This document shows, piece after piece, positions 3,440-33,675 of a stretch of DNA of 64,000 bases; position 1 is the stretch's first letter, and every line of letters starts with the position of its first letter. Under the pieces are notes generated by a model that saw only the letters and a program-made list of their open reading frames with translations, did not search any database and had not been told where the DNA came from. The DNA lies in contig JAQMWT010000322.1 in NCBI GenBank assembly GCA_029834535.1, positions 496,001 to 560,000 on the forward strand, read 5' to 3'. The stretch comes from Chrysophaeum taylorii. Lineage: Eukaryota > Sar > Pelagophyceae > Pelagomonadales > Pelagomonadaceae. The position numbers and the translations under genes were made by a program.

Positions 3440-3472
3440 CTAAAATTTATTTATTATTCTGAGGATTTTTGA

Positions 3473-5014: not shown

Positions 5015-5572
5015 ATGTTCTCGAGCGTCGCAAGAAAGGTCGTAAAGATCCGCGCGGCGCGGCGCGGGATATGCGCCATCGGCACCAAGCTGAGTGGCGT
5101 TACGTTGCAGCCTGCCCGTTCGTGGGACGACGGGGCCGCCGATGGGTTCGCGGGAAAGTCGCTCGCCGAGGTGTTCGGAGGCAAGAAAGTTGTGCTGTTC
5201 GCGCTTCCCGGCGCTTTCACGGGGGTGTGCGAGCTGGGGCACGTGCCGAGTTTCGCCAAGAACGTGGAAGCATTCAAAAGCAAGGGCGTCGACGACATCG
5301 TGTGTGTCTCAGTCAACGATCCGTACACTATGCACGCGTGGTCAAAGCTCATGGGCGCGGATGGAATCTCCTTCTATGGCGACACCGAAGCCAAGTTCAC
5401 CGAGCTTGTCGGCGAGACGCGCGACCTCAACGTCGCCGCGCTCGGCCCCGGTCTGCGCTCCAACCGGTACTCTCTCCTCCTGGACGACGGCGTCGTCGTC
5501 CAAGCCTTCGTCGAGGATTCGCCGGGCGACCTCAAGGTCTCCGATGGGGACACGATGCTCGCCGCCCTCTAA
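5015..5572 (+). CDS. PRX5: Atypical 2-Cys peroxiredoxin, PRX5 / type II
   Basis: PRX5-type enzymes reduce H2O2 and alkyl hydroperoxides using thioredoxin or glutaredoxin. The protein has 185 aa. The catalytic motif PGAFTGVC ends at the peroxidatic Cys72 (family PGAFTPTC). VNDPYTMHAW follows as in type II enzymes, with a second Cys near residue 97 (DDIVCVSVNDP) and the conserved Arg in RSNRYSLLLDDG. The first ~25 residues are basic and Ser/Ala-rich without acids, consistent with a mitochondrial presequence. The C-terminal stretch normally holding the resolving Cys (DGxxCTVS) ends in DTMLAAL with no Cys, so resolution may depend on glutathione or thioredoxin. No introns are seen. Confidence 0.9.
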   Translation: MFSSVARKVVKIRAARRGICAIGTKLSGVTLQPARSWDDGAADGFAGKSLAEVFGGKKVVLFALPGAFTGVCELGHVPSFAKNVEAFKSKGVDDIVCVSVNDPYTMHAWSKLMGADGISFYGDTEAKFTELVGETRDLNVAALGPGLRSNRYSLLLDDGVVVQAFVEDSPGDLKVSDGDTMLAAL

Positions 5573-7105: not shown

Positions 7106-8903
7106 TTAGTACGAGAGCGCGAACTCCTCGAGCTTGGAATAGATGATGGTGCCGTAGCCCGTCGCGGCATCCCAGCCTTCCTCCGCAGTGAAGCCGCCCG
7201 AGTAGCCACCGTCAGTGGTTCCGGAAGTGACGTCGTTGAAGCAGCCGCCAGCCTCACCCGCGGCGTAGAGCATGGGGTTGAGGAAGCCGAGGGAGGACTT
7301 GCCGGCGGAGAGGCGCGCATCGTTGATCTGGGCAATGATAGCCGCAACCACGGGGGAGGCAGCGGACGTGCCGGACACGCCGCCGTAAGTGCCATCCTTG
7401 TACGAGATGAGGTACGGGTTGACCTCGCCGGCGAGGGCCGAAAGGTCCGGGTAGCCGCGGCCATCGGCGTTGTAGAAGGAGGAGCTGGGGAGATCGTCGG
7501 TCTTAAGGTAGGCCGAAACCTCGTCGGTCTGCCACGAGGCAGTGTCGAACTCGTCAGAGAAGCCCGAGCCGCCGTCTTCCCACGCCGTCTCGTCGCCGAT
7601 GGTGGACTTGGTGACGAAATCAGTGCCGCCGACGGCGGTAACCTACACGACGGGTGAAAAAAAAAAAACCTTGTTCTCACGTAAGGGGATCCCGCGGGGA
7701 AGTCGGGGTGGTACTCTGTGCCGAGGCCCTCGCCTGCGAAAAGACGTCACCAACGAAGATAAAACGTCGCGACTCACGGCCCCAGACGCCCTGGTCGCCC
7801 GCGGCGAAAATGATGGAGATGCCCTGGGCGCCGTTTTTCATAAAGGCCGTGTTGACCGACTCCATAAACGAAGAGCTCGTTTGCTGCGCCTCGTCGTTGC
7901 CGTACGACACGGAGATTACGAGAGGAGGATCGTCAGCGTCAGAGAGAGTCGAGGCGAGGTCGAGAAGGCTGTAGGAGGTCGAGTAGTAGACCTGGAGCGG
8001 GATGGCGCCAGCAATCGCACCGACGTACTCGATGTCGAGCAGGCTCTCGATGCACGGCTCGAGGCCGAACGAGCAATAGCTGTCCGAGTTGCCGCCGACA
8101 GTCTTGGATACGGTGACCGTCTGGCTAAGCCCGCAGAGTTCCGAGAAGTCCTCGAGATCGGTATCATCGTAGTACTCCTCCTCGAATTCCGCGACGGCGA
8201 TCGAGTTGCCGCTCGCGTACGAAGTCTTCGGGAAAGCAAAGCCGTACCGAGCCGCGAGGACCGACGGGTTCACGTACGCCGAGTAACGCGACCCGCACGC
8301 CGACCACTCCGAGGAAGCACTCGTGCTGACGGTGAGGTTGGTGACGGGCGTGACCTCGGCGAACCGCATGCGCGGGAACCGCACGAGCTCGCCGACGACG
8401 CTGACGTGGCGCGCGACGCGGGTAGGGAGCGAGTACGGCTCGACGGCGCGCACGATGTCAACCTTGGTGTACTTGGCGTGCGTGTGGTGGAAGAGACGGG
8501 TCTCGAGAGCACGCTCGACGGCGCCCGCGGGGACCTTGACCTTCACGACCGACTTGTGCTTGATGACGTGCACGTCGCTCGCCCCGAGGTCGTTCACAAC
8601 AAAGTCGAGGACGACGTCGATCGCCTCCCTCGATGGCGAAAGCTTCTCGACGACCTCCTCCGGAGAGAGCCACTTGGCATACCGGGGGCTCCCCGGCGTC
8701 GAAAGCTCGAGGAGCTCCTTTTCGAAGTTGCGGATATCCTCCTTGTCGTGCTTGAGCCAGAACTCGATCGCGAGCTTCTCGGACTCCTCGACGCGCGCGC
8801 CCACCTTCCAGTTCGCCGACGAGAACTTCTTTACGTCCTCCTCCATCTGCGTGCGGAAGGCCAGCACGCCGCTAGCGACGACCAACAACTTACTCATCAA
8901 CAT
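7106..8903 (-). CDS. Sedolisin (S53) serine-carboxyl peptidase, copy 1
   Basis: Sedolisins are secreted or lysosomal proteases active at acid pH. Three exons: 8903-7778, 7733-7681 and 7642-7106, giving about 571 aa. Both introns (7777-7734, 44 nt; 7680-7643, 38 nt) begin GTGAG and end AG. Splicing restores GVWG-R-EGLGTEYHPDFPAGSPYVTAVGG, the conserved S53 core. The order is: signal peptide (~1-17), pro-domain, catalytic Glu/Asp in ESLLDIEY, oxyanion Asp in FAAGDQG, nucleophile Ser in SGTSAASP, and a C-terminal Ca2+-site region GWDAATGYG. All catalytic residues are present, so the gene should be active. It has a close paralogue at 31818-33615; sequence outside the coding region diverges at once. 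Confidence 0.92.
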
Positions 8904-9009
8904 GCTTGCCTTGACTACTACCTAGGTTACTGAATAGGTGCAGTACTAGGACCTGAAATTGTAAACACCCAATCAAAGTTTCTCTAGGTTAAGGATTACG
9001 GCTGGTACT

Positions 9010-12259: not shown

Positions 12260-13371
12260 TGCTATTTCTAGTTTTCTCGAATCCGATTCATCTTCTTCTG
12301 GCACGGGAGAAAAGGCTGAAGTAAATACTTCTGCTCCTACAACGTCCGCCAGTGATGCGCAGCAGAGGGGAACCGTCGATACGGAGAAGTCGTTTCATAC
12401 TTTTCTATCCATTAAAGATTCCGACATCGATAATATCCCGCAACCGCCATTGCAGCACATAAGTGCCAAAGCTCAAAGTGCCGTTGTCCGCCGTCAAGCT
12501 CTGGAGGCTCCCCCTAAATCTGATGAGCCTCAGGATAAGACCCAGCAAGATGGTGAAGCAGATGATGGTACAGCACCACCTAGGTTACTTCCAAAGCTCC
12601 CGCTTAATAATGCCTTCACTTTGGTAGTCCCGCCTTCCGAGCAAATGCAAACCTTTCTAACCCAGTATGCGTTTCGTCAAAGTTCCACGCATGCATGCTA
12701 TGCTACAATGCTCAAACTCTACAATGAATATAGTCTTCTCATCATGACGACACCAGGATACGCTGATTCTTGCGCTTCACAGCACGTTATTAATTTTTGG
12801 ACGTTATGCGGATCCCTTGCATATTGTTAAGCGGCCAGATTCACTGTCACCAGCAATTCAGAGTGCTACTGACACGCAAAGTATCACCCACGCTATGATT
12901 ATACGTACAGTCATCCCAGCACTCCCGAAGCATCCTGATGTTGGCTACGTAAAACTCGATGTCGCTTTGTTTCTTCCTAAGCTCAATCCACACAACGACC
13001 CTGATCTTCACATAATCAGCATGTCGCAGTGGGGTGAAGACAAGCGTGGCATGCATCTCTTCGGCATTGAATTCAAGGGACAATCAAACATCACTAGTAA
13101 AATTGATGATAATGTTCAGATTCCGTTGTTCAGGCTGGAGAATCTGCTTCCCACGCTTCCCATTTATTCGCTACAACAAGCTAAGGCACGAAAGATGGAG
13201 CTTCGCCCTTTACAATTTAAGCTATGTTCTTTCAATGAGCAACGTGAGATGCAAGGACTCTATACCAAGCTGCTTAAACGTGTAATTTATGTTCCTTGGC
13301 TCAAGTCAATCTTGGAGTCCATGTATTCGCAGCTTCACTATATCCGCAAGCATCACTCACCGCCTGTATGA
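12234..13371 (+). pseudogene. Copia-1 protease region
   Basis: Frame 12234-12830 starts with a Ser/Thr/Gln-rich linker containing SDAQQRGT and ends with ADSCASQHVI, the aspartic protease active site, in which the usual D-S/T-G is D-S-C. A frameshift near 12805 moves the reading to 12817-13371, which continues the fold (ITHAMIIRTVIPALPKHPDVGYVKLD). A helical tail aligns with the end of the Copia-2 protease region. The D-S-C triad is shared with Copia-2. Confidence 0.6.
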
Positions 13372-13389: not shown

Positions 13390-15260
13390 TTGCTACATAC
13401 TGTAACATCTACATCTAATTCTCGTGCGCCCTCGGTGACTCTTCGTTGCTCTGGCTTGTCTACTCCAGCATTTCTAGTCTGTGCCACTAATGACTTGCGA
13501 ATCAACATTAACGTCAAAGTTCTTGTCGAGAGCGATGAAACCCTTACGCACATGCTACGATCAAGGTTTGGCAATTCTATTGAAGTTTTCCCGTCTCTTC
13601 CTAAGTTTCTCACGTATTTGCACCGTGCGTCCGATAATGAACGCGCCAAATACTACTCGGATATCGTGGATTGACGTCTCCGTGCACAAATAGAAATGTA
13701 ATCAACGGGAGAACCATCTCGACTTTCGAGCGAGATATTGACGATTCCCTATTTCCAAGCGCATTAAGTGTGCCTGAGCTCATTAAACCTCTTGTCCTCC
13801 TTATAGAGATGACACCGCCGCACGGCGCATCCTATGAGGATCACATCAGAATCGCTAACTTACTTTTCTCTTCGATGCACTACACGGTCGATATCTGCGA
13901 CCGCTTTCCTTGTTATTTATGTGGCGACTATCAAGCTAGGGAACGGTGGATCCTCGTTGCCCGCAAATTCAACTCTGGTCCGCTAGATTTACTCTCCTGG
14001 CCCAATAAACGGGTCACTTCATTTCTTGATATTGCTGATAATAGCAATGCTATTAGTCGAAAATTATATGTCGATGAACCATGGACGCAGGTATTTCCAG
14101 ATGCGCCTTATGTGTCTCATCCTAAGACCTTCGCTTCCTTTAATCGCACAGGGTCTGTTCGTATGATCGTAGCAGAGCTTGAAAAATTGACCATGCTTTT
14201 CCTGCGTCTGCACTCTCAGAAAACGACAGAACACCCATCTCAAGATGAAATAAAGAATACCGCTAATTTTCGCCTTGACTTCTTAACGAATTCCAAGCAG
14301 CCCCTGCCTTGTATGACATCGCCTATTGAACTCAAGACATCTGTCATCTTGTATAACATTATGGGGCGCTTGTTCCCTAACTCAATCACTTTACCTGTGT
14401 CTTTTCGTATTACAACGTTCGAAACTAACCAACCTTCGCACAGGTTATTCCTAAATAAATCTTCAAGTTCCCCCATCATCTACATCACAGGTGGAAGACA
14501 TACAGGTGGTGACATCACCGTCACCAGCCCTTCTTCCAAGTATGTAGCTCACATTTTTTCTTTTGGTGAGACCTACACACTCCAATCACATGAGAGTGGA
14601 GTCGACAAAATGGCCATCCTTGAATCTGCAACTGGATCTCTATGGCTTTGTCAGGCTTATCACCATGGTGGTGAACTGCGGGACACACGTCGCCTAATCC
14701 AAACTCTAGTCTCGCGAAGTTCTCCTGTGCTGCAGGATTCACTTCTCTTCTACTCGAAATCTAATCATCTCGAATTTGTCGACAGATCCTTTGCACTAAG
14801 TGACATGCACTCGTCTCAAAGCATGTATCTGGGCTTCAGTACATCTAGCGACAGGAAAATGGGCGCTAAAGTCCATTCCATTTATACTCCAACTCCCACT
14901 ATCCGTGGATATGCAAACATGTTGGTGTTCGACCCAAGAGTTGGTCGTCTTCGACACTACTCGACACGAGAATTGGCACGAGCCAATAACTTCACCGCGC
15001 GCCAAATTAATTTTCTTTTGTCTATACCTCCTGATCTGTGTTGTGACATGATTGCTAATGCTATTCCAGCTGGCACCTATCATATATTGTATACCAGTTT
15101 GTGTCAGATCGTTTATGACTTGCGTAAATTAACGCTATCTCCATCTTTTCGATCCCGATCATGCCCCACTAACCAAAACATACAGGTCAGCTTTCTTCAC
15201 CAACATCTTACAACTGATCATTCACAACAGTTTACTCAAAGTTTTCTTACAATGCAATAA
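13390..15260 (+). pseudogene. Copia-1 DNA cytosine-5 methyltransferase-like domain
   Basis: Two frames, 13390-13674 and 13671-15260, together show C5-MTase landmarks in the right order. Motif I/II: LRCSGLSTPAFL...VKVLVESDETL (~13440-13545). Motif VI region: LVLLIEMTPPH (ENV replaced by EMT, ~13795). Motif VIII: GDYQARERWILVARK with QxRxR kept (~13923-13968). Motif IX: GRLRHYSTRELARANNFTA (~14942-14998). Motif X: ANAIPAGTYHILY (~15056). The catalytic motif IV (Pro-Cys loop) expected between I and VI is not found. Between VIII and IX lies ~300 aa of target-recognition-like sequence. It sits between protease and integrase, as in Copia-2. Activity as a methyltransferase is unlikely. Confidence 0.65.
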
Positions 15261-15533
15261 TTAAACGCTAAAACCTTCAAGTGTCCTGAAAATCTGTCCT
15301 CTAATCCCGAACTTCTTTTGTTTGATGTCGACTCTGTTGCACGTGTATTTATGTCTAATATCTCGTCTTTAGATGATACATCAACTTCATCCTCTATCTC
15401 CAAACCCAAGCATATTCTCCTAATAACTCCAAGGCATGAACATGAGAAACATGCTTCATACGACAGAAAGGTACATTCTCGTGGTACAATCGCTTTTTGC
15501 GATGCACAGAGACGCGACAAATTTCCACAATAC

Positions 15534-15931
15534 CGATCGCTAACCGTTGGTTGCGATGGAGGACGGCGCCTAACACGCTTGCTTCCTGCGGCGGCCCCGG
15601 CCGTCCCGGAGTGAGACGGTGCCTGCTCGCCTCCCGGGCTGGCCGGTTAGCACCCGGAAAGTCCGCGCTGGGATGGGGTTCGGTTGGGCAGAACGCGACG
15701 GACAGGTCGATTGTTCGTGGACCAACACGTCCGCGGCCTGCGACGCTTTTGCACGACCTCGCACAAGGCCGCGCGCAGTGACGGTCCACCATCAACAAGT
15801 CCGTCCTCGTCCCTCGCCTCTGCCCCAACTGCGTGATTTTCCTCTGTGATTCCGTACCGGCTCCTGCCGGTCCGGCCTGGCTCCATGCTCGGGAGAGGTC
15901 TGAAGTTAGTTAGTTAGTTAGTTAGTTAGTT
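15534..15931 (+). repeat. Short LINE-like repeat, copy 2, inserted in Copia-1
   Basis: This is the same element as 1581-1977 in the opposite orientation, ending in six or more TTAG units (15905-15930). It interrupts Copia-1 coding sequence between a segment ending RRDKF (about 15520) and one beginning around the integrase zinc region (about 15935). The GC jump relative to Copia-1 marks both edges. Confidence 0.65.
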
Positions 15932-16381
15932 CATCACTCTAGTGACTCTCAAGCCATAAAGGCTGTTCAGGTCATCTCAAACCCTGGTCATCATCCTTCT
16001 GACGTAACATATCGGAAATTCTGTGTGAATTGCACTTTACACAAGAAGAAGTTCCCGCACTCCCATCTCTTAAAGCAGCAGCCCTCCTTCGAGAAAACGT
16101 TTCAACCTGGCGAAGCCTGGGCATGTGATGGTGGGTATGTTTCAGTACTCTCCGAGTGGGACCACTTCCGCCACATCTTGGTCTTCAAGCGTCTTATTTC
16201 AAAATTTATCTTAGTTTACTTTTGTCGCACTACAAATGCTAGTGAATTTTGTAACGCTCTCGAGTTTGTTCGTAATTTCTGTTCTGCTTAAGTTCATGTG
16301 GAATTAAAACACATATACTGTGACTCCTATAAACACTATTTGTCCAGGTATGTCACCACTCCCTATCGTGTTGAGCATGGC
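15932..16381 (+). pseudogene. Copia-1 integrase, N-terminal part
   Basis: This part reads VTYRKFCVNCTLHKKKFPH (zinc-binding Cys pair) and then GEAWACDGGYVSVLSEW, with the first catalytic Asp in ACDGGYV. A stop at 16289-16291 follows NFCSA. The next segment, CDSYKHYLSRYVTTPYRVEHG, holds the second Asp and stops at the Copia-2 insertion. The protein continues at 29159 with INISAFPPYLHVFN, matching the continuous order in Copia-2 integrase. Confidence 0.75.
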
Positions 16382-16693
16382 TGCGGAGAAATCTGCTGCC
16401 TCTTACCCTTATCCGTCTGTTGAGAACGTGATCTCTTCCTTACCCTTCCTCTTCCTTTCTACACAATCAAATAGTCCTCTGATTTGTGCCTACGCTCATC
16501 ATCATGGTCTAGCGCGTCCCGAGGTATGTAGCACTATACATTTAACCTTTCTCGTGTAGTTCTAGATGCCGCCTGTCGTGTTCTGAGGATATAGGGAACA
16601 TAACTTTCATTCCCCGAATTAACCTTCCAGACGCTCACGATGAGACGGGATGGTTTCCCAGGTGACTTACCACTGCTTGCTAAATGCTCTGCA
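16382..16693 (+). repeat. Copia-2 5' LTR (312 bp)
   Basis: TG...CA ends with the short inverted terminus TGC/GCA. It matches 28842-29153 with only a few differences (for example CTTCCTCTTCC versus CTTCTTCTTCC near 16446). It is flanked on the left by ATGGC (16377-16381). Confidence 0.93.
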
Positions 16694-16710
16694 GGTTATG
16701 GGCCCAGGCG
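16694..16710 (+). promoter_or_regulatory. Copia-2 primer-binding site complementary to tRNA-iMet anticodon arm
   Basis: GGTTATGGGCCCAGGCG starts at the base after the LTR. Its complement reads CCTGGGCCCATAACC, which is the anticodon stem-loop (CAT anticodon) of initiator Met tRNA. Priming from an internal tRNA half is the copia/Ty5 mode, so the primer is recognisable from sequence. Confidence 0.75.
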
Positions 16711-17158
16711 GGTCCCTGAGAAACCATGTGTCAACATGCACGTAACCTATGGGTATTGGGTCGTTACTGCGCCGACCTAGCCTCGACATGTGACACGCTT
16801 GTCAATATATCGCCATTACCATTGGGCTGTATATAATATCTTTTTGCACACGTGATCGTGTAACCTTGTGTGCACCTGTTCATAGCATCGTATTGTCATG
16901 TTAATGTTGATGTGTGTGTAATTGGCTAACCTGTACTCTTGCACACATGTTATGGAATATTTTGGGTATGTCCACTCGTACATTACATGGCAATGCTTAA
17001 CAAGCTCCTTGAGAGCACCAAAAACTAACCAGCTGCCTGAGTGACTACGCTTAGCGACACTACTCTGGACTCACAGCTTGCACAGTCGTCTTATAGACAC
17101 ATTTTCCATCGAAAAATCGATGAGTGTACATAGACACCGATAGACAGACCCCCTTAGA

Positions 17159-19321
17159 ATGTCTAGACAGTGTCAGGTGACTGAACCCACAGGTTCCCCG
17201 TCAACTGCTATGGCAGAACACGCAGCACGAGCCGCACCTAAGGCGATCACGGGTGCGGATATATTGAAGCTCGAAGCTCCTGTAGTTGAGTTTCTTAATG
17301 AGGGCAACCGCTTTCAGCTTCAGAACCGCAAGGTATCCTTGCAAATCAAGCATATCAAGCAATTACTACGGTCCAGTCATGCCGATGCTTTCCTCGAGTA
17401 CGACTCGTATGAAGCATATACTCGGTCATGCAAGGACTACGAAATCCTCCGGAATCAAATTCTCGATCGCGTTTTCCTGGAATGGAAGGCCAATAGGGCT
17501 GCTGATCTCCGTTTAGCTGTTGATGAGTTACCCCCTGAGTATCAGGAATGGCATTTCACCAACGAAGCTTTCCCCCACTTACTTGATGCAGAAGTAGCTC
17601 AGCTAACTACCGTCTGTTACGACTATGAAGTCAAGGCATTACGCCCTGAAATCAACGCTCGTTTCTTAGAAGAGGAACGAATCTTAAATCGCGCGCACCC
17701 GAAGACACTAGCTTTCGACACTCGTGTTCGTGCCCCGGTTACCATGTTTTCTTTAACTGCAGCTGACTGGCACACTTACCAGGACGCGTACACTACATTA
17801 TTGCATACTTACTTCAATCTTGAAGGTGTTGGAAAACCGGCACTTGCGGCCTGGCCCGCCATCAATTAGATATACAACAAAAGCTATTTACCCAACAAGG
17901 CTCGAGCTATTATGCTCATCGCCTTTAATCACTACGAGTCTGTTACGACTACTGATGTGTCTTACTTGAAACAGCAATTTAACTCTGTTGTTTATAATCC
18001 TAACTGGTATGTCCATGTATTTATCGAAGCTGTCCTAGCATTTAGGCAAATCTCTTACCAACTTAACCAGGAAGAGACTGACCTTCAATTCGACTTTGGC
18101 ACTCTTTGCAGAAAAATCTATGAAGAGATACATCGGCACTATGCCGATAATACCAGCAACAACCGCTACGATCGTGGTTGGGTAGATTGGTGTTATATGT
18201 ACGAAACCCGATCTTCATCTCGACCTGTACCAGAAGCTGAACGATTGTGTCACCCTACCAACCCAAGCTACATTTTAGAATACGCATTAGACCTTTACAA
18301 TGTCGTATCAAATGGGTCGAACAAAAGACGCTTAGAACGCCCTGTTTCTTGGCAACCCTATGTCGAAGGTTTATCATCTCAACCAAAGCCAAAGTTACTC
18401 CTTACACATACTTTGGACTCATCGGACAAAAGTCTGACTCAAACTGCTAACACACTCGCCTTCATCACTTCGTCCCAACCTGGTACATCTTCCACGTTTA
18501 ATGCTAGACGCTTGCGTAACTCTAATGATGCTCGCCAGCCTTTCTCTCGCAGCGATTTATCGTATTATCGTCCTGGTGATTCTTACGTCACCAAGAAAAC
18601 TGCCGGACAGTCCCATGACCGTCCAATTTACCCCCGCACTTTTGACAGGTCCTCTCGGTCTAACATGAAATTATTAGATCGAACAAACCACACCTTAAAC
18701 ACCCTGCGAGAACAGTGTAGCGAACTCACGAAGCATGTGACAGATAATGATACCACGGCTCAGCTACAACATAATATCAACAAGTTATTTGAGACTTTGC
18801 TACAATCAGCCGATATCCTGTCAACAACATCTACTGAGGACAACAGTAGTTTACTTCGTCTAAACGAACAGCTCATGTTTGCAGAAGACATCATTTATGA
18901 TGTAGACGTTCATCTATCCTCGACCGAAAAGTCGTTAAACTACGTGGAGCCACAACACCATACTGTCGTTACTGCTCCCACCCCAACAACAACTCCTCCT
19001 ACTACAAACACACAGGGTAATCCTTCCAATACTGTGTCTAACTCTTTACCGCTTCCGCCATCTCGGCTTTACCACCAGCATTCTTGTCCTCGCTATCTCC
19101 ACCAGCATTCTTGTCCTCGCTATCTCCACCAGCATTCTTGTCCTCGCTATCTTCATAGGTCCAATCTGCCCTCAACCTACCGTCACAAGCCGAAACCAAA
19201 AGGGATGCCGATCACACCTCTCTATCGTCATTTGACGAAAAGCACGGCATGGCTGATGAGGCTGACGAGCCATCACCACCTGTTCAACCGATCATTATTC
19301 CAACGAATCTGTTATTGCTGA
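17159..19321 (+). pseudogene. Copia-2 gag
   Basis: Starts at ATG 17159; an in-frame TAG at 17867-17869 breaks it (Copia-1 has a sense codon there). The same frame continues to about 19000. Conserved blocks with Copia-1 gag: ADILKLE, HADAFLEYDSYEAY, ADWHTYQDAYTTLLHTYFNLE, NWYVHVFIEAVLAF, SSRSNMKLLD. There is no CCHC knuckle. A 27-bp unit is repeated three times at about 19071-19157 near the gag-protease boundary. The motif encoding STEKSLNY lies at 18920-18943, shortly before the boundary, where a protease cleavage site would be expected. The protease follows in a different frame, either by programmed shift or decay. Confidence 0.7.
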
Positions 19322-20038
19322 AGAACTTCTTTACCGCCAGCCTCTCCACTACTTGCCCACATTCGGAAAACGCCTTCCTCACCAACTACATGAAGGTAAA
19401 CAGTGTCCCTCCACATTGCTCTTTTCTATATTTTGACTCTTGTGCTACCATCTCATTGATGTCCACCTACGATTTCGCAATACCCAATCATATAATTCCA
19501 TTGAACTCCACGTACGCTCCGATTGTTATTCAGACGGCAACAGGACAACAACGGGCATCACACATGATGTTAACACGCAACATCGTTATTCCCCTACCAG
19601 ATCATCCACAAGTTGGCTACGTTAAGATCGACTTCGCTTTATGTCTTCAACCAGTGCATGACCGACATCTCGCTATCCTGAGCATGCTCGAATGGAACCA
19701 GACTAATCTTACCACCGTGTTCAACGATCGAGCTGAGCCAAAGCTCAGCGCTGTCACGAGCCGCATAGACAACGATGTACGTATACCCATACACTATGTA
19801 GCAGCTAATTTACCGCTCTCCCTTGTATCACTTACAACATCGCGCGCGACAAGCGGCTGGAACTTCGCTCCCTTGCATTTCCCCTCAACCGATACCATGA
19901 AAACAGGGACCTACTGGCATACTACAATTACCTACTCCAACGAGTTTTACCAGATCGGCCGTGGATTCGCCCTTTGGTTCTTAATCTTCGGAAACAGAAC
20001 AAATTCGTTCAGCAAAATACGCAGTCATTAAGTTGACT
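19249..20038 (+). pseudogene. Copia-2 aspartic protease region
   Basis: Frame 19249-20031 contains LYFDSCATISLM (active-site D-S-C, ~19431-19466), then MLTRNIVIPLPDHPQVGYVKIDFALCL, aligned to the Copia-1 protease. A frameshift near 19830 follows: the homologous helical tail (RDKRLELRSLAFPLN) continues in another frame up to about 20028. The region is cut off from the rest of pol by Helitron-like repeat B. Retroviral-type proteases process the polyprotein; Gly to Cys in the D-S-G triad is unusual. Confidence 0.65.
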
Positions 20039-21091
20039 ACAAGTGCAGGCCAGTAAGTTCGCCAGTAAGTTCACCTGGTCCCAATCTCTAACCCCAGCAA
20101 GTTCACCTGGCCCCAGTAAGTTCACCTAGTCCCAATCTCTAACCCCAGTAAGTTCGGTGTAAGCCCACTCGTGCTCACATCCACTCACCCCACTCTCCTT
20201 CGAGCTCGTCGCTCTCACCTCCGCCAATCTAAGCTGCTTTGATCCGTACACGCCGCTCGCCTTTGCGTTCACTCTAAAAACCCCTGTAAGTTCACTTGGT
20301 CTCAGTAAGTTCACCTGGTCACTAAGTTCACCTAGTCCCAATCTCAAACCCCAGTAAGTTCACCTGGTCCCAGTAAGTTCACCTACCGTGCGCGTGTAGA
20401 CGCCGGGAGGGGGCTTATCGGTATTGCGCAGCACGTGTGGGGTAGGGTGGAGTCGTCGACTCAGAAGAGGATATCCTCGGGGTTGCCGATCGACAGAGAG
20501 CCACGTAGAGCTGGACGTGGCAGAAGACGGGCTTGGGCAAGAGGACGCCGACCTCGCGGGGCGTCTGCCCTGGCTCTTGTTGATCGTTTGGCGTCGGCGG
20601 GCCTTGAGGGATACAGGTTGGAGGAGCCTCGGTGACACGACACGATCGATCATGTATCTGGTACCGTTGCAGTGGCCGTGCGACGGGTCGAGGTTGCGAA
20701 GACTTTAAGCTCGCGATCAAAGTCAGCATGCCGTTGGTTGTCAGGAGTTGAAACTCGACTGTAAAGAGCGAGGCGTCGTCTTCCGACCCAACCTAGTCGG
20801 CCGAAAAGAACTCCGACGCCTCGTCTCCGGGAAAAAAAGGCCGCGGTCATGCGCGCGTTGTCAGCATCGACAACATCGTTTCGACGGGGCGTGAGAATGG
20901 CGCGCTGAAAGAGCCGCCGCGGGTCGTGGAAATAGTCTGCGAGGTCGCCGTAGACGGCTTGGAGGATCACTGTCTGGCTCTCGCGCCTACCTGATCCTTA
21001 CTCTCGCGCCTATCTGATCCTTACCCTAAATCGAGGGACAAACAAACAAACAGACAAACAAACAGACAAACATCTGTCGATTAGTAGTTAA
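20039..21091 (-). repeat. Helitron-like ~1 kb repeat, copy B, inserted in Copia-2
   Basis: Full-length copy, ACAAGTGCAGG at 20039 to TTAGTAGTTAA at 21091. It interrupts Copia-2 between protease and methyltransferase-like domain. GACT occurs on both sides (20035-20038 and 21092-21095), a possible 4-bp target duplication; classical Helitrons make none. The left 350 bp carries about ten AGTAAGTTCACC iterons. The decayed helicase is on the minus strand (QRAILTPRRNDVVDADN around 20890; QLYVALCR around 20510). It is younger than Copia-2. Confidence 0.85.
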
Positions 21092-21140
21092 GACTCACAC
21101 GGCCAGTTTTTCTCTCACAAGAGTCCAATCCCCGCAAACC

Positions 21141-22900
21141 CTCTGTCATGTTACTTTGTTCTGGTTTGTCAACTCCGGCGTTCCTGTCTCAAGCCACTAA
21201 TGACTTAGGCTTAAATATCAATGTAAAAGTTGTTGTTGAGTCTGATGATACGCTTGTTCGTATGTTACGCCACCGTTTTCCTACTGTACTATTATTTGAA
21301 TCTCTCCCCGCCTTTATTAACCATCTTCACAACAAAAGTCAGAAGACTTACACAGCCTGCTGGATGATTCTCTTTTCGACAGCATGCTGTCTGTCATCAA
21401 ACTACTCCAGCCCTTGGTACTACTGGCTGAGATGACGCCTCCGCATAAGTACTGTCACCAAGACCACATCACAGTGGCCAACCTTATCTATGCTACTCTT
21501 GATTACTGTGTCGATGTTGTTGATAGGTTCCCGACCTACCTATGTGGCGACTACCAATCTAGAGAAAGGTGGATATGCGTCGCCCGCAGATATTCTACTG
21601 GACCAATTAAACTATCATCGTGGCCCATCCTCCATCCACGCCCCTTCCTAAAGATCGTGGATGATCTACAAGCTATTCCCAAGCGCCTTTGGCTACCTAA
21701 CCACATATCCAAAGACTGGATCCGGGTGTTCCCCGATCCTCCATACATATCCGTTCCTAAAACGTTTGCACCTTACTCTCGCACAGGTTCTGCTCACTTA
21801 TTATGGCTGACCTTGAATCCCTCAATATGTTACTACTTCGCCTTCACTCACAACAGGCTCACGAGCAACGTACTCACTCTGTTCAACCCGAGTGTACTTA
21901 CCATCAGTTGTGCTTTAAACGCTCCTCTATGGAGCCATTACCCAATGCAACACATCCTATACACGTCAAGATTTTTACAATCCTCTATAACGTGTTCGCA
22001 AGCTTACATACTAACTCACCCACTCCTGTGTCCTATTACATAACCGTTTTCGAAACTAACCAACCGTCACACAGGTTATTACTTACAACCTCATCAACAT
22101 CACACAACTCCTACTTCTTAACTGGTGGCCACCATTCCGACGGCGACCTCACCATAGAGAACGCCACCACGAAAAACACCACTCCCATTAACGCCTTTGG
22201 GAGCACGTATACGTTCACTGCTTCCGACATCCCCCGCGACCGGGACAGGTCCATATATCTGGAGCCGTTTATGGGTTACTTGTGGATAGTCCAAGCCCTT
22301 CCCCAAGTTGGCTCCGCTACCACCTATGGCACCGCCATACAAAACCTCGTGTCCAGATGCGCTCTCATTATGCCTGGCTGCCTTACCTACAAGGCCACCG
22401 ACAACTCTTTCGATTACAAGGATTCTCTTTTTGCTCTGGAAGATCATCACCTATCTCATAGTCGCTATATAGGGTACCTTCGTGGAAGTGACCGCAAACT
22501 CGGCTCTAAAATCCACTCAATGCTTGCTCCATTGCCAACCGTCCGAGGGTATGCCAATATTATTTTACTCGACCCTCGCAACGGGAAATTACGCTACCCC
22601 ACTCGACCGGAGTTGATTCGTGCTAACAACCACACCAAACAACAGGAATCTTTCCTATTGTCTCTACGCCATGACCTTTGCTGTGACATGCTCAGCAATG
22701 CTCTGCCTGCCGGTACGTATAGCACTCTGTACAAGCACCTTTCGCTCATCGTCGCCGATATTAAATCCCTTATGTTGGACCCTACCTTCCAACATACTGC
22801 TGCCGTGACGAAGAAATCCTATGTATCCAATTTCATGACCGTTGACCAAGCCTCCACCACGTGCAGCACAGATACCTTGTCTTTGGCACAATCTTTTATG
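21141..22900 (+). pseudogene. Copia-2 DNA cytosine-5 methyltransferase-like domain
   Basis: Same order as in Copia-1. Motif I/II: LLCSGLSTPAFLSQATNDL...VKVVVESDDTL (~21148-21255). Motif VI region: PLVLLAEMTPPH (~21408-21443). Motif VIII: CGDYQSRERWICVARR (QxRxR, ~21543-21590). Motif IX: GKLRYPTRPELIRANNHT (~22582-22635). Motif X: SNALPAGTYSTLY (~22693-22731). Frameshifts occur near 21350 and 21810; from 21803 the frame runs on into integrase, so the domain is part of the pol polyprotein. No PC(Q) catalytic loop is found between motifs I and VI (about 30 residues, DDSLFDSMLSVIKLLQ). STEMSLNY-like motif 2 marks the integrase boundary. Confidence 0.68.
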
Positions 22901-22945
22901 ATGTCTATTTCCAGCAACTGCTTGACCGAAATGTCGTTAAACTAT

Positions 22946-24469
22946 ATATCGTCGTCCTACGAAGATACTCTCGCTACTCGTGATAATGAGGATGCACCTC
23001 CAAGTGACCCTGCTGTGCACCAGGATGACGACGCACCGCCTTCCACTGCCTTAGACACCGAACTCAAGTTCGATGTTCGGCGCAAACGGCACATTCCCGC
23101 TCATCCAATTCCTCGTAAGTCCCTCGCACACGGATCCACCGAATATCTCAATGCCAAAGAACGTGCTAATCGCTTTCACCGGGTGCATCACTGCCCCGAC
23201 AACGTCGCTGCCAAGGCCCCCAACGTACTTGCTCGCCCTGGATTCTCTGCTTCTGACATACCATATCGCGACTTATGCACCGACTGCATCGCACACAACA
23301 AGCGCCACCCGCACAAGCATTTCAATGCGACCAAGCCTTCTTTTGAGCAAACCCACAAAGCCGGTGAAGTCTGGGCGTGCGACGGCGGCTATGTGACCAT
23401 CCCATCCGAATGGGGAGGCTTCACACATATCATCGTCTTCAAGGAACTCATTTCGAAATTTCTCTTGGTGTACTTTACACGCACCACCAACGCCACGGAG
23501 TTCACTCAAGCTCTGGATTTTGTGTATGACTTCTGTCGTACACAACTCAATGTGCACATGCGCACCCTCTACTCCGATGCATTCAAGCCTTACTTTAGCC
23601 AGCACATTACCTCCCCGTACCGCGTCGATAAGGGCATTCAACTCATTGCCTTCCCGCCGTACATGCACCACTTTAACTTTGAAGTTGAGTCTGCCATCGG
23701 TTTCATCGCCTCCGCCTCCTCAACTCGCCTTCGTTCTCTCCTTAATGCTCACTATCGTGGCGCCAAGATCGTGGAACCCGCTATCATGTTCCCATGGGCG
23801 GTGATACACACCGTTCAAAGCTATAACCTTCTCCCGAACGCCACGCTCGAGCGCATTCATCATGCTATTCTGAGTCCGCAACAGCTACTCTACAACCAAC
23901 TCAGCACTCCCCAACACGATATGCTCAAGATTTTTGGCGCTGAATGTTACCTCCTATTGGAGCCCCATGAACACCACAAGTGGGAACCGTGCCGCCGCAA
24001 ATATCTGTATCTCTGTTGCGCCAACGCACAAAACCCGCTCGTCTCCCCACGCGTCGACCATCTCGCTGACGTCGTCCTCAACCCTGAAAACGGACAAATT
24101 CGTGTTTCGTCCAAGCTGCAATTCCTCTACATGTTGCAGCATCCTACTCCTGATCCTGAACTAGCTCCTCCGCCACACGCTCCTTCCGCGCCTTTCTCGC
24201 TCACACCCCACACCACTATGCAAGACCATGTCATTCAGAGGGGGACAAGGACTTCTCATCCTCAGAGGGGGCACTCCCCACCTCCTTCAGCTCCTCCTTC
24301 TTCGTCCCCTACTCCGGCCTCTTCTCCCTCTTCTGACGCTACCGCCGACGAATCTGGCTCTATGTCACCGCCGCCCTTGCTTCCTTCTTACAAATACCTT
24401 TTGCACACGATGACCTCATTCTTGTCCCAGGTTCCAAACAGCCTAACACTCGCAAGGCCACTTCTATGA
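22946..24469 (+). CDS. Copia-2 integrase (part of pol)
   Basis: This is the downstream part of the 888-aa frame that starts at 21803. Zinc-binding region: FHRVHHCPDN (~23170) and LCTDCIAH (~23275). Catalytic triad: Asp in WACDGGYVTI (~23380), Asp in TLYSDAFKPY (~23572), Glu probably in ATLERIHHAI (~23845). The integrase domain is intact. The C-terminal tail (after ~24150) is Pro/Ser-rich with two QRG-coding purine runs (CAGAGGGGG, 24236 and 24265). The enzyme would insert the cDNA, making the 5-bp duplication seen around this element. Confidence 0.82.
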   Translation: MSSSYEDTLATRDNEDAPPSDPAVHQDDDAPPSTALDTELKFDVRRKRHIPAHPIPRKSLAHGSTEYLNAKERANRFHRVHHCPDNVAAKAPNVLARPGFSASDIPYRDLCTDCIAHNKRHPHKHFNATKPSFEQTHKAGEVWACDGGYVTIPSEWGGFTHIIVFKELISKFLLVYFTRTTNATEFTQALDFVYDFCRTQLNVHMRTLYSDAFKPYFSQHITSPYRVDKGIQLIAFPPYMHHFNFEVESAIGFIASASSTRLRSLLNAHYRGAKIVEPAIMFPWAVIHTVQSYNLLPNATLERIHHAILSPQQLLYNQLSTPQHDMLKIFGAECYLLLEPHEHHKWEPCRRKYLYLCCANAQNPLVSPRVDHLADVVLNPENGQIRVSSKLQFLYMLQHPTPDPELAPPPHAPSAPFSLTPHTTMQDHVIQRGTRTSHPQRGHSPPPSAPPSSSPTPASSPSSDATADESGSMSPPPLLPSYKYLLHTMTSFLSQVPNSLTLARPLL

Positions 24470-26980
24470 AAACTATCCGAGCCCGGTTACAAGCGTCTAC
24501 TATTGGTGCTTACAAAGCCGCTGGTGGCAAGCTCGCCGATTTCCGCTGGGATCTTCGCCACCACTTTCTTACGTTCAAGTCTCCCGCCCTCTCCGCCCTT
24601 CATCTCCGTGGTGGTATCCTCTGGTCTGCTATCTGCTCAGAGGGGAACATGCGTTGTTAGCTCGTCTTCTTCTCCCGTTGCGTACTGACTTACTTGCCCG
24701 CTACCCGCACGTCGATGGTTACTTCGCCCACGCCAAGTGCGCATCCAGCATCCCAGCTGCAACCTTTTTAACTGCTGATGGTTCACCTACGTGCCCTATT
24801 CCTCAGCCCCTTTTATCTGCGTTCACTGAACACGCTGCTGCCTTCGGCACTTCTTCCTTACAATATGCACTTACGTACCTGGCGCCGACCAGCTTTATTG
24901 ATCACAACTCATCCGAGTTTGGCGCTACTTCTGCATCTCTGGCTGACTTGGAGGAATACCTTCTGGTCTCTACAGAGTTTATCACCCAGGTCTTACGTAC
25001 CGACCCTACTATCCATATCCAACTGGAATCTGCCCCTACTACTCCTACCGACGCTGTTTCCGCTTATCCCGAAGTTGCGCACACTGCCTCGACCGCAACG
25101 TCGCTAAACTATAATTCACCAGCCACTGTTGGTCCTGACGAATATAAGGTCCAAGAAGCGGACGTTTCCATTGACGAATATAAACTTAAGTGCCTCCACG
25201 GTTTGTCGCCTGAAAACAGGCACGCCTACCTCAAGGCCATCGCCAAGGAACTCCACGACATTATCCGCTTTGGCTGCTTCAAACTTTCCTTACCCGACGG
25301 TGTCTCTCGTCCTATTGACAGCAAGATGGTGCTGAAGATTAAAACAGACTCTGCAGGCAAATACGTTAAGCACAAGGCTCGCCTCGTACTACGTGGCTTC
25401 CTAGCATCTCTTGGCGCCGATTTCTTTGGTACCTTCAGCCCCATGGCCACTATGACCGCAATCCGGGTACTACTAGCTATTGCAGCATACAAGCAATTGC
25501 CTGTCTACCATGCAGACGTCCCGAACGCCTTCGTTCAGTCTGACATCGATGCCAATGTCTATGTTCAATTACCAGACGGCATCAAGCTTATCGACCCCGA
25601 TGACGCTAAGTACAAGGGCCGACGTCTACCGAAACTGCTGAAGTCACTTTATGGACTTAGGCAATCACCATCCCTTTGGAACAAAGAGATAGACGGCTTC
25701 TTCCGTAGCCTTGGTTACAAACGCCTGCATTCGGACTCTTGCCTATATGCTCGAGTATCCGCACATGCTAAGTTCGTCGTATGCAGTCTGTCTGTAGACG
25801 ACATTGTTATTGTGTCCAATGACGACCCTCTTCGTACTGAATTACAGGATGCCCTCCACAAACGGTATGCTGTAGAGCAGTTTGAACCTGTCCATACCCT
25901 CCTAGGCATGCGTGTGTGTCGCACATCTGACGGCTCCATTTCTCTGGATGTGCAAGCCAAGCTGGATGAACTCTTCGCTGATCACCCAGTCTTGCAGCAA
26001 CTGACCCCGCTTAAATATCCTATGTCATCGTCCTTCAAGTATAAAGATGGCACTCCCAGCACTGAAACAGAGTTGTACATCAATTCGCACTTTGCCACCC
26101 TCCTTGGCAAGCTGGTGTTCATGCAAGTTGCCTGCAGACCTGACTTCTCGCAAGCCTTGGGCAGATGTTCGCGTGGTATGCATGCACCCACATATGTTCA
26201 CGTCCAAATGCTAGAGCATTTGCTTCGCTACCTCAAGAAGCCGGAAAACCGCTCACTTCGCCTCTGGTTTCACCCTAAAGGTAATGCCATTGAAGCTCAC
26301 CTTCGCACTGTCTCCGCTAATCGAATTGATCTATCCACTGTGGTCGACTACCAACCACAGGATGTATCTACTGGACAGTTTGACCCCTTAGTTGCCATGG
26401 TTGACGCTGACAATGCCCCTTCCTTAGCACAGGAAGATAGGAAATCTACCACCGGGTTTGTCTTCTATCTTTTCAACTGCCTTATTGGTTGGAAAAGCAA
26501 ACTTCAACCGATTGTCTCCTGCTCAACTCACGAAGCTGAGTTGATTGCCCTCAGTATTTGTGCTGATGAAGCTGTTTGGCTACGCAAGCTGCTGTTGGAA
26601 CTCTCCTTTGTCGTCAACCCCACCTTCTACGTCAACAATGCTAATGGTGAGAACACCGCTGACCCTGTTGACTTCGATGACAATGACAACCCAATTGCTG
26701 AAGATATGCGCTTCATCAGAAGCCTACCTCTTTGTCTGACAATGCTGCCGCTGTTCACACCTCTAATAACCCAGATGGGTCCTCTCGATCCAAGGCACTG
26801 TCGACCAGATGGTTCAAAATCCGTGAGTACATATCGCTTCAGAAAATACGAGTCCATCATGTTCCCGGCAAGCTGAACGTGGCGGATGGCTTTACAAAAC
26901 CACTTGCGGCTGAGTTCTCCACTTTTCGTTCTCTACTCGGTATGCATCATGCCTCTCACGACAATCCTTTACAGGATTGA
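24466..26980 (+). pseudogene. Copia-2 reverse transcriptase and RNase H
   Basis: A short linker frame (24466-24660) passes into the RT frame (to 26876). RT (RVT_2 type): KHKARLVLRGFLASLGADFFGTFSP, VYHADVPNAFVQSDI (catalytic Asp), LYGLRQSPSLWNKEI, and LSVDDIVIVS in place of YVDD. RNase H: VAMVDADNAPSLAQEDRKSTTG, SCSTHEAELIALS (catalytic Glu). A one-base shift near 26725 moves the end to 26732-26980 (SDNAAAVH, SRSKALSTRWFKIRE, VPGKLNVADGFTKPL). RT and most of RNase H are otherwise intact. Motif 3 (STATSLNY, 25089) precedes RT and motif 4 (26996) follows RNase H. Confidence 0.85.
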
Positions 26981-28841
26981 AGATACCTAACTCTAGTGAC
27001 CGCAACGTCGTTAAACTATCCCTGGCCTTACCTTCTCTTGCCACATTTTTTGTACACGGGCGAGTGTTGTTCATGTCTTCTTGACACTCCCGTGGCCGTG
27101 GCATCTCTCCCAAGTTGTTTCAAAAGCGACAACCCATAACCACTGTCACTCCTACTACCTCCCAGGCTGCTACTGTCTCACCGACACCAGCGATGGCCTC
27201 AACATGGATTTTGCCCTGATTGAACGAGGATTCTCTCGTTCTGAGAGCTTCCGTACTCCTGCCACGCCCTTTCTCTCTTCTGTTATGCGAGCGGAAATCT
27301 CTACGGCACTCAACTCGATATATGAATCTGCTGACTCTTTACTGTTTGTGGAACTTACGACGTTCATATCCATGCGCGTTTCATCCTGTCATCCTACATT
27401 TCTTGCTTCCACCACATATAATTCAAAGTCACAAGCACCTAGTGAACTCCCCACTGAAGTGCTGAGTCACCTTAACACAGATGACCACAAGAAGAATGGT
27501 CATATTCCCATCTCAACTATCACCACTAACATTTGTTGTGCTTGTCACAACACCGATCAGGCGCCCATACAACCTAACGTATGTGCACGTAATGCTACTT
27601 CCTTCCAACCCTCCTGTAACGGGTGCTCAGCTGGTCATATACGCGCAACCATCATACGCACGTATCATTTGCCAAAGGAGCTACATGTTCTCTTGACTAG
27701 AATCTAACGCAACACTCGTCACTTGCTCATTTAGTCTTATCAGTAACCGATGCAGCCACAGACTCCACTACTCAATTACCATTGGCACTGGATCTTCGGC
27801 TTATTACTCAGATGCACCTGGAGCATCTTAACTTTCTTGTAACGCTCGAGCAAACACAAGCTCGTAAAACTCAGGCTATGTTCAAGCCCACCAAATACCA
27901 CCATGTGATTCATACTGTTATCTGATCGCGTGTACAACATCTTAACAACTACGCATCATCCTCTGATGATACAGAACCGCTATTACTCCGGGATGTAATG
28001 TTCGGCCACACTTATGTTCAGGCAGAACATTAAGGCTTCCTGCACCCCTTTTTTTTAACGTTGACCGAAACGTCGTTAAACTACTCACACTCCACGCTAG
28101 ACGCTACTCTGGAGATATCTTCGCCACCGTTACCTACGCCTTCTGCTTCGCTTGTTGATTCCGACTTCTTGTGCCAACAAGTCGACCAACTCCAGGAAAC
28201 ACCATCCTGGAGAACCGGCTCTCCCCTCCTACAGCCAACACCCACGTGTTACTTATACACGGTACAAGATCACAGAACTGTTGTCTCGCTTAATACTCAC
28301 CGCTCATGATCAACATGCTACCAACTACTCCTCCCGGACGATCACCTCCTTCATCTACGTGACAAGTTGCTCTCATGCTTCAGAGCATTCCGTCCGCTCT
28401 CATGTGAATCTGAAGACTCTTCTATCTTCGTTCTTCGTTCGCCAAGTCCAACCTTTTTTTTTTTGAAAACCAACTGGACACCTTTCAACTAGATTCTCTA
28501 TCGCCATCCATACTGAATGCTCTACTTGCACTCACCCTTCTCTTGGCACCACATCGTTCAGCTATTGGTGTTCACCACCTTACAGCAGAAGCTGACGATG
28601 ATTAATAATCCTAACACACTGTCTGTTGTATCTGTGTTTCTTAATGTTCTGTTCAAAAGGGTCAAATCGACTCTCAGCTCCACCAAGTCCAAGTCCAAGT
28701 CCTAAGACCCTTCTATACTCTTGATGCTTCGTATGTGACCTCTGTGACCATCAAGACTGTATTCCTTCCTTTTTTCTTCATCATCATCTTTCTCAAGAGA
28801 TGCTCTACAGTCGCACCTTGCGCTTAAGACATCTCGAGGGG
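26981..28841 (+). other. Copia-2 post-pol region of unknown content
   Basis: About 1.86 kb between RNase H and the 3' LTR, more than Copia elements usually have. Frame 27081-27707 (208 aa, no clear family) has a Cys/His-rich segment (CCACHN...CARN...CNGCSAGH) that recalls the integrase zinc region. A second short frame starts at 28061 with motif 5 (LTETSLNY). The rest has many stops. GAGGGG just before 28842 may be the polypurine tract. An extra gene or the decayed remains of one cannot be excluded. Confidence 0.5.
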
Positions 28842-29153
28842 TGCAGAGAAATCTGCTGCCTCTTACCCTTATCCGTCCGTTGAGAACGTGATCTCTTCCT
28901 TACCCTTCTTCTTCCTTTCTACACAATCAAATAGTCCTCTGATTTGTGCCTACGCTCATCATCATGGTCTAGCGCGTCCCGAGGTATGTAGCACTATACA
29001 CTTAACCTTTCTCGTGTAGTTCTAGATGCCGCCTGTCGTGTTCTGAGGATATAGGGAACATAACTTTCATTCCCCGAATTAACCTTCCAGACGTTCACGA
29101 TGAGACGGGATGGTTTCCCAGGTGACTTACCACTGCTTGCTAAATGCTCTGCA
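28842..29153 (+). repeat. Copia-2 3' LTR (312 bp)
   Basis: Near-identical to 16382-16693; starts TGCAGAGAAAT after GAGGGG and ends TGCTCTGCA. Followed by the target duplication ATGGC (29154-29158) and then Copia-1 integrase sequence. Confidence 0.93.
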
Positions 29154-31066
29154 ATGGCATTAATATTTCTGCCTTCCCGCCTTACTTGCATGTGTTCAAT
29201 CATGAAGTAGAAGCTGCTGTTGGTCACATAGCAACCGCTGCAGCCACTAGACTTAGGAACCTACTAAACGTGTCATACAAGGGTCACCCAATAACTGACC
29301 CAGCTCTACATTTTCCGTGGGCTGTAATTCATGCTCTTCAGTCGTATAATCTCCTTCCTAATGTCTCTCTCGAACGCATTTATAATAAAGTGTTAAGTCC
29401 CCAACAAATGTTGCTTCACCAATGTAATGTTCCCCAACAAGACTACCTAAAACAAATTGGTTCTGTTTGTTGTTCGCATTTAGAACCCAACGAATTTCAT
29501 AAATACGAACATCGCTGTCGCCCCTACATCTACTTATGTATGTGGCGCTAACGTATTAACCCGCAGGTTACACCTCATGTTACCCATACAGCTGATGTTG
29601 TTCTCAATCCCAAGAACGGTCAAGTCCGTGTCTCCCTCCTCTAAACTTACTTTTCCTTATCTAACTTCGAAATCTCCTCCCGATTATGAACAATCCCCAC
29701 CACCTGCACCTTCGCCTAAGGTCCCCTTTTCAGCTCAGAGCACCCCCAGTGATGCGTTGCAGAGGGGGATTGCTGTGTCAACCGACACTGAACACGAGAG
29801 GGGGACTACCTCGCCACCATCACCAGCTCCAGCTCCTGCTCCCGCTTCTGCTGCTCCAGTCGAGACACCTACGGCATCTGAGTTCCCGTAAAATGCTTTG
29901 CCAGTTATGCAAACATTTTGTGAGCTGTTTTCCCAAGACCCTCTCCGTCTCACCCAAGGTCCTAATCAACCTCAACCTCGACGTAAAACTAATCTCCAAG
30001 CAGTCCAAGCTCGCCTTGCTTCGCCCACTATCGCCGATTACAAGCAAGCCGGTGGTACTTTGGCCGATTTTAAATATGATCTCTCCAAGCACTACATCAC
30101 CTTCTTGGATCCCACCCTCCACTCCCTGCATGCCTGCCTCCAGAGGGGGAATTCACACAGACCCTTCATCATCACGTTTACCAAGCTCTTTCGCAATCAT
30201 CTTCACGTGCATCTTCCGCTGTGGATCAGAGCAGACATATCCATCCATCATCTGCCTCACCAGTTCACTTTCTCGACACGCCCTGCCCCTCGGATTTCCA
30301 TTTACCACGTGCACTCGTTCACCTAATCACAGAACATGCTCAAGCATTTCAAGTGCCCACCGCTCAATATGCTTACGCATTATTGACGCCCCACGCCTTG
30401 ATGGCACATAATCAAGCTTCCTATGGAGATTCCGAACCCCACCTCTCTGACATCGAGACCTACATCACGGTGCAGGCTCACTATATTGAGGCCCACCTAC
30501 AAGCTGATCCTCTACTCGTTGTTCAACTAGTCGAAATTCCCGAATATGCTCCCGCTCATTCTGATGCCGATTCTTATGCTATCACATATTTGACCCAAGA
30601 TCAAGACCCCAGCACCTTCGGCCCTGATGAGTACAAGATTCAAGCCAAAGACATCAAGATTGATGAGTATGAGTTGACCTGCCAAAAAGGTCTCTCAGAC
30701 ACCGATCGCAAGGCGCCTACATCTCTGCGATTTCCTAGGAGATCTTCGACATAGTCAAGTTCGGCTGCTTTAAATTATTGCTGCCGATGGCCAACTCCAA
30801 GCCCATTGATACTCGGCTCGTGTTGCGCGTAAAGACCAACGCAGCCGGCGAGTATCTCAAGCACAAGGCGAGGTTGGTGCTAAGGGGGTTTCTCGCTTCC
30901 CTTGGCACCGACTTCTTCAACACTTTCAGCCGGGCGATGGCGCAGCTCACCGGCATCCGTTGTGTTCTAGCTCTGCGCATCTTCGGCTTCCTGTCTATCA
31001 TGTAGACGTGCCTAACGCGCTCGTTCAAGCCCCCATCGATTCTCACGTGTATGTCAAGCTACCGTA
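29154..31066 (+). pseudogene. Copia-1 integrase C-terminal part and truncated reverse transcriptase
   Basis: 29154-29551 continues integrase (INISAFPPYLHVFN, FPWAVIHALQSYNLLPNVSLERIYN with the probable catalytic Glu). A linker in shifted frames has three QRG purine runs (29760, 29792, 30140). RT starts in 30221-30754 (DPSTFGPDEYKIQAKDIKIDEY) and, after a frameshift near 30715, reads KHKARLVLRGFLASLGTDFFNTFS and HVDVPNALVQAP (frame-shifted), stopping at VYVKLP near 31066. Sequence beyond is unrelated, so the element is truncated there. Confidence 0.75.
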
Positions 31067-33615: not shown

Positions 33616-33675
33616 GATGATTCCGTCGATTGGTCTGTGCCCCTCTTCGGTTTTGTTCTTAGATTCCAGGCTACG

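Follow-up and report, generated by a model that had tools for sequence, protein, structure and literature searches.

A probable cytosine-5 methyltransferase domain in Ty1/Copia retrotransposons of the pelagophyte Chrysophaeum taylorii

Two Copia elements with methyltransferase motifs

Chrysophaeum taylorii is a reef alga belonging to the pelagophytes. A stretch of 64,000 nucleotides of its genome (contig JAQMWT010000322.1, positions 496,001 to 560,000; hereafter the window, in which all positions below are counted unless a locus is named) contains two Ty1/Copia retrotransposons, Copia-1 and Copia-2, in which the interval between protease and integrase carries the motifs of a cytosine-5 methyltransferase (C5-MTase; MTase for methyltransferase). 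The run of motifs in both elements is more than chance. Comparison with relatives across the C. taylorii genome (70.8 Mb, 697 contigs) indicates that the feature is real and unusual, namely a Copia element with a probably working C5-MTase, of which the window shows only two broken copies. We refer to the Copia-2-type family as A, to the Copia-1-type family as A′ and to a third Copia family found in the genome as B. The features of the domain in the window are as follows (ORF, open reading frame).

13369–13371, + strand: Copia-1, UGA at the junction of the protease ORF and the MTase ORF, in frame and conserved
13441–15074, + strand: Copia-1, C5-MTase domain, motifs I to X, in two reading frames
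13441–13473, + strand: Copia-1, motif I, LRCSGLSTPAF; motif I of its relatives aligns with motif I of other C5-MTases
13519–13536, + strand: Copia-1, motif II, VLVESD
13674–13697, + strand: Copia-1, motif IV, TSPCTNRN (in LTSPCTNRN), Cys codon at 13683–13685, in a frame different from that of motifs I and II
13806–13823, + strand: Copia-1, motif VI, EMTPPH (canonical ENV)
13932–13949, + strand: Copia-1, motif VIII, QARERW
14961–15074, + strand: Copia-1, motifs IX (STRELARANN) and X (ANAIPAG)
21151–22714, + strand: Copia-2, C5-MTase domain, motifs I to X, with motif IV deleted
21331–21335, + strand: Copia-2, site of the motif IV deletion, about 85 nt lost net, where relatives have TPPCTNRN
21429–21446, + strand: Copia-2, motif VI, EMTPPH
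21555–21572, + strand: Copia-2, motif VIII, QSRERW
22604–22714, + strand: Copia-2, motifs IX (RPELIRANN) and X (SNALPAG)

Motifs I, II, VI, VIII (QxRER), IX and X are thus seen in order between protease and integrase in both elements, as a preliminary description of this DNA had reported, and its reading of motif VI as EMT instead of ENV is true of both window copies and of their families. Its statement that motif IV is absent applies to Copia-2, by the net deletion of about 85 nt, and fails for Copia-1, where TSPC is encoded in another frame. The Copia-2 deletion is private to that copy and occurs in none of the aligned relatives. A missing catalytic cysteine as a trait of these elements was consequently rejected, since Copia-1 encodes it and the relatives retain it; the residue appeared to be missing because both window copies are damaged.

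The remaining parts of Copia-2 identify the element and its class (LTR, long terminal repeat).

16382–29153, + strand: Copia-2, complete element, nested within the integrase region of Copia-1
16382–16693 and 28842–29153, + strand: LTRs of Copia-2, 312 nt, with TG...CA ends, 98% alike
16377–16381 and 29154–29158: target-site duplication of Copia-2, ATGGC, 5 bp
19426–19449, + strand: Copia-2 protease active-site motif LYFDSCAT, by eye
23381–23413, + strand: start of the Copia-2 integrase core, DGGYVTIPSEW (rve E=0.0014, under its cut-off)
24447–26876, + strand: Copia-2 ORF for reverse transcriptase (RT; RVT_2 E=4.9e-42) and RNase H, the latter by eye

Copia-2 therefore shows the Ty1/Copia hallmarks of TG...CA LTR ends and a 5-bp target-site duplication, and the order protease, integrase and RT with the Ty1/Copia domain RVT_2 was found, with rve under its cut-off and the protease recognized by eye from its active-site motif LYFDSCAT. 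The start of the integrase core shares an open frame with the C-terminal half of the MTase. Copia-1 is the more decayed of the two, and its coding sequence picks up again downstream of the nested Copia-2. The domain order of the elements is Gag–protease / MTase–integrase–RT–RNase H, and an insert of about 310–350 aa separates MTase motifs VIII and IX.

Relationship of the domain to cytosine-5 methyltransferases

Judged by Pfam, the domain of family B is a C5-MTase. PF00145 was matched in 8 of 11 B members with a best E of 1.2e-8, including the copy L040 at E=1.1e-7, above the cut-off, and B also matched the NCBIfam model dcm (TIGR00675) at E=2.8e-8, under its cut-off. L040 contains a single ORF of 1952 aa in the order protease–MTase–integrase–RVT_2 (RVT_2 E=1.6e-38; protease by eye, rve under its cut-off), with the MTase motifs LPCQ, ENV, SKTRY and ANAVP. 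A family A copy carries MTase, integrase and RVT_2 in one frame of 1634 aa, in which PF00145 was unmatched.

The search of the genome with PF00145 gave 57 places, two of which (L001 and L002) are MTase genes that belong to none of the Copia families, and 40 of the remaining 55 belong to family B; this assignment comprises 28 places overlapping the 68 scored B candidates, four placed by tblastn (L003, L005, L007 and L008) and eight out of eight that were fetched. L001 is a DNMT2-like gene on contig C634, identical to CTAYLR_008533. L002 contains, at its positions 1006–3537, an ORF of 844 aa with a C5-MTase domain (PF00145 E=7.9e-18), whose motif IV is TSC instead of PC.

For families A and A′, profile–profile comparison points to a domain of C5-MTase type. 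The reference set consisted of the proteins of 301–519 aa among the 120 matches listed for the genome's DNMT2-like gene, and a profile of 15 related copies aligned with this DNMT2-type set in register over the whole domain (E=0.0011, none of 100 column shuffles as good). When the domain was split into N-lobe and C-terminal part, a division chosen after the whole-domain result, the two parts matched at E=2.2e-4 and E=7.9e-5, respectively, and again none of 100 column shuffles equalled either score. The alignment places motif I on motif I, TPPC on PPC, and LRYPTRPELIRANN on LRYFSPREIANLLGFP. The C-terminal motifs IX and X are identified in A through the profile match and in B only through likeness to A. 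The two families resembled each other in hhalign over the C-terminal part (E=5.6e-4) and the N-lobe (E=0.0019), and the B profile in HMMER found A with a best E of 0.0017 against a best decoy of 0.13. Among eight A-type members compared with Pfam at E up to 10, the sole family reported was PF00145, in one member at E=0.029.

Several results weigh against this assignment. Single A sequences had no significant match in Pfam or NCBIfam, and B showed no significant likeness to the DNMT2-type set over its C-terminal part, where 19 of 100 shuffles scored equally well. Over the whole domain, hhalign gave only weak A–B matches (E=0.034 and 0.028), and the A profile in HMMER found B members at E=0.014–0.82 intermixed with shuffled decoys, the best of which reached 0.028. 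Of two PDB sequence searches with A, one found nothing and the other only a pair of ribosomal proteins (E=0.97 and 1.5), while B found an MTase at E=0.51. AlphaFold2 models of the window pieces had a mean predicted local distance difference test score of 32.6, unusable as fold evidence. No relatives of A or B appeared in two protein searches, each scoring fewer than 8000 word-sharing candidates, or in IMG/VR scans. Neither the pieces from the window nor an intact copy of A had a Pfam MTase match; A matches C5-MTases by profile–profile comparison and B matches PF00145. The central observation of the preliminary description, a C5-MTase-type domain inside the Copia pol of two diverged families (45–46% identical), was borne out, and a third family was added to it.

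Catalytic residues and selective constraint

Matches were obtained at 30 A loci and 12 A′ loci. Candidates scored numbered 69 for A, 80 for A′ and 68 for B, out of 1604, 1383 and 809 at first look, and those of A and A′ may overlap. Residue counts cover the loci readable at the position concerned, with each family's query copy included. The cysteine of motif IV is encoded at 23 of 24 A loci, the sole exception being the window's Copia-2, at 9 of 9 A′ loci and at 17 of 17 B loci, together with 8 of 8 further B places. The glutamate of motif VI is present in 24/25 (A), 9/9 (A′) and 16/17 (B) loci, and its asparagine, as in ENV, in 16 of 17 B loci. The arginine of motif VIII is retained in nearly all readable loci; in A, A′ and the two window elements this motif reads QxRER, and some copies carry a single change in it. 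All eight fetched A′ relatives have motifs I, II, IV, VI and VIII in a single frame, with motif VIII altered in two of them (QARETW and QSRGRW) and motif I in one.

The ratio of nonsynonymous to synonymous substitution rates (dN/dS, Nei-Gojobori), restricted to open-frame copies, was low across motifs I–VIII: 0.11 in A (6 copies, 15 pairs; range 0.06–0.48), 0.04 in A′ (8 copies, 28 pairs; close to saturation, with a mean dS of 1.06) and 0.13 in B (8 copies, 28 pairs). These values point to purifying selection like that described for DNMTs in Gypsy elements (Ka/Ks below 0.2; PMC5890265). The integrase of A gave 0.23, and motifs I–VIII were the lowest among the parts with a computable ratio, that of the A′ insert not being computable because dS was saturated. 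Copies with parts shifted or missing were excluded (L038 of A; L046, L049 and L050 of B).

CpG observed/expected ratios were 0.96 in A, 0.96 in A′, 1.07 in B and 0.93 in Copia-2, and 1.25–1.28 in flanking host DNA. C-to-T differences at CpG in A amounted to 5.4% versus 3.5–4.7% in other contexts, only slightly higher, and on the opposite strand CpG (3.7%) was not the highest (2.3–6.2% in other contexts). These ratios and transition rates therefore reveal no strong mutational scar of maintained CpG methylation in A, A′, B or Copia-2.

An in-frame UGA ahead of the methyltransferase

Protease and MTase share one reading frame in A and A′, with one stop between them, and in copy L039 the gag, protease and MTase ORFs all lie in one frame. 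With a search pattern that permitted any residue at the stop position, TGA was found at 18 of 18 recognized A junctions (30 loci examined) and 7 of 7 recognized A′ junctions (9 examined). The 12 A loci without a recognized junction include the window's Copia-2, L027, which has foreign sequence there, and L024, in which TGA was visible at the junction on separate inspection; the corresponding number in A′ is 2 of 9. The distance from the UGA to the motif I anchor is 20 codons in A and 23 codons in A′. Since the codon is constant across families that are only about 45% identical, the sequences suggest that it is under selection, and hence that it is passed by readthrough or another form of bypass. 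No conserved RNA structure was found 3′ of the UGA, where 0 of 28 pairs had changed on both sides, which counts against the explanation favoured below, and synonymous conservation 3′ of the UGA was not exceptional.

No stop interrupts the protease–MTase junction of the B copy L040. Its gag ORF (900–2633 of the locus) and pol ORF (2597–8452) overlap by 37 nt with pol in the −1 frame, an arrangement that points to frameshifting rather than readthrough in family B.

Tca2 of Candida albicans is a copia-type element. A UGA between its gag and pol must be bypassed (PMC2194720), so that it shares with A and A′ a UGA inside the retrotransposon coding region; the UGA of Tca2 ends gag, whereas that of A and A′ stands after the protease and before the MTase.

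Repeats in and around the nested elements

A dispersed repeat of about 1 kb occurs five times in the window with 84–95% identity (20061–21093, 1–919, 37241–36165, 46244–47211 and 59693–60688). One of these copies, 20061–21093, sits inside Copia-2 between protease and MTase, and its portion 20063–20385 consists of short repeated units (CAGTAAGTTCACCTGG...). A 380-bp repeat at 15534–15908, with an inverted copy at 1590–1977, is inserted in the Copia-1 linker ahead of the integrase; upstream of the MTase, locus L027 has a translation that by eye resembles that of this repeat. On either side of the Copia nest lies a 1.8-kb direct repeat (7104–8907 and 31816–33622, 93% identity), whose right copy looks by eye, on the minus strand, like an S53 (sedolisin-type) peptidase gene. 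The 1.8-kb repeat was rejected as the LTRs of Copia-1, as no TG..CA ends were seen and it apparently codes for a peptidase-like gene.

Discussion

Given the retention of the catalytic residues, catalytic activity of the domain is likely, and the Copia MTase probably methylates DNA or RNA and is not a mere binding module. We favour, with fair but not strong confidence, the explanation that a pelagophyte Ty1/Copia element acquired a C5-MTase domain, that this domain stands first after the protease and is probably made by readthrough, and that it methylates cDNA. What the element captured would have been a C5-MTase domain in which a long insert separates motifs VIII and IX. As a fixed UGA separates Gag–protease from MTase–integrase–RT in A and A′, the MTase, integrase and RT are probably produced together as a minor readthrough product. 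In the most likely mechanism the MTase would then be packaged into the virus-like particle and would methylate the new element cDNA before integration, element RNA or primer tRNA being less likely substrates. Such methylation would shield or mask the cDNA, or else tag the newly inserted copy. A more elaborate version is tentative and, taken as a whole, rather doubtful: at least three high-copy pelagophyte Ty1/Copia families would carry an active C5-MTase, obligate UGA readthrough would gate its production, together with integrase and RT, in two of them, and inside the particle each would methylate its own cDNA in a pattern that is unmaintained or not directed at CpG.

The preliminary description had regarded the domain as apparently catalytically dead and as possibly serving target recognition or chromatin/DNA binding without methylation. 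Several observations do count against an active enzyme and fit such a dead fold, namely EMT for ENV in A and A′, the degenerate motif I and the lack of a CpG scar; motif VIII of B, shrunk to SKxRY without the Q and the first R, and the limitation of dN/dS to open-frame copies fall on the same side. Nevertheless, nearly every readable locus keeps the cysteine, glutamate and arginine, B has ENV, and motifs I–VIII are the most constrained part, so that a pure DNA- or chromatin-binding role is not favoured and a dead fold is unlikely. It is possible that the change from Asn to Met in motif VI of A and A′ leaves a reduced or altered activity. The constraint also bears on the idea of a decaying passenger, a captured MTase that hitch-hikes without function. 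Many copies are broken, both window copies among them, yet dN/dS is low, with motifs I–VIII below the integrase of A, and the domain is kept in families only about 45% identical, which makes a passenger highly improbable.

An RNA m5C methyltransferase, DNMT2-like in action and directed at the genomic RNA of the element or the tRNA that serves it as primer, is a rather unlikely alternative to the methylation of cDNA. The matched reference set is of DNMT2 type and no scar of DNA methylation was seen, and in yeast SymbioLINE-Dnmt produced no methylation of DNA, a result its authors considered inconclusive, with RNA proposed as a possible substrate (PMC5890265). The DNMT2-type match, however, reflects the reference set that was used.

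Retrotransposons described as carrying C5-MTases are of the LINE, DIRS and Gypsy kinds (PMC5890265; PMC6338049). Among the closest parallels is KnitGypsy-Dnmt3 of Klebsormidium nitens, an LTR retrotransposon whose Pol polyprotein ORF includes a C5-MTase, with key residues kept and purifying selection (Ka/Ks below 0.2; de Mendoza et al. 2018, PMC5890265). It differs in being a Gypsy element with a Dnmt3-type domain, whereas the Copia MTase is very divergent, stands after the protease and is preceded by UGA in two families. SymbioDIRS-Dnmt3 and SymbioLINE-Dnmt of Symbiodinium are likewise high-copy retrotransposons with a C5-MTase (PMC5890265), although they are DIRS and LINE elements and not Copia; SymbioDIRS-Dnmt3 versions methylate CG in yeast, and according to the same paper the Copia elements of Symbiodinium have no DNMT domain (PMC5890265). 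A single sentence in PMC12344493 (Mol Biol Evol 2025) names "LTR Copia and DIRS", citing the 2018 paper (PMC5890265). This remark concerns streptophytes and dinoflagellates, its text contains no word that starts with "pelagophy-", and the cited 2018 passages name Gypsy, DIRS and LINE. Beyond that remark, no description of a Copia element with a C5-MTase was found in the literature covered, preprints and most subscription papers lying outside its scope. A word search of the main text of the C. taylorii genome paper (PMC10366177) returned none of "transpos", "repeat", "repetitive" or "copia".

If this interpretation holds, the recruitment of cytosine MTases by retrotransposons would now include the Ty1/Copia class, and a pelagophyte among the hosts, with at least three families in one genome. 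Since the copies are numerous and many of them open, the role that such MTases may play for a retrotransposon thereby becomes testable.

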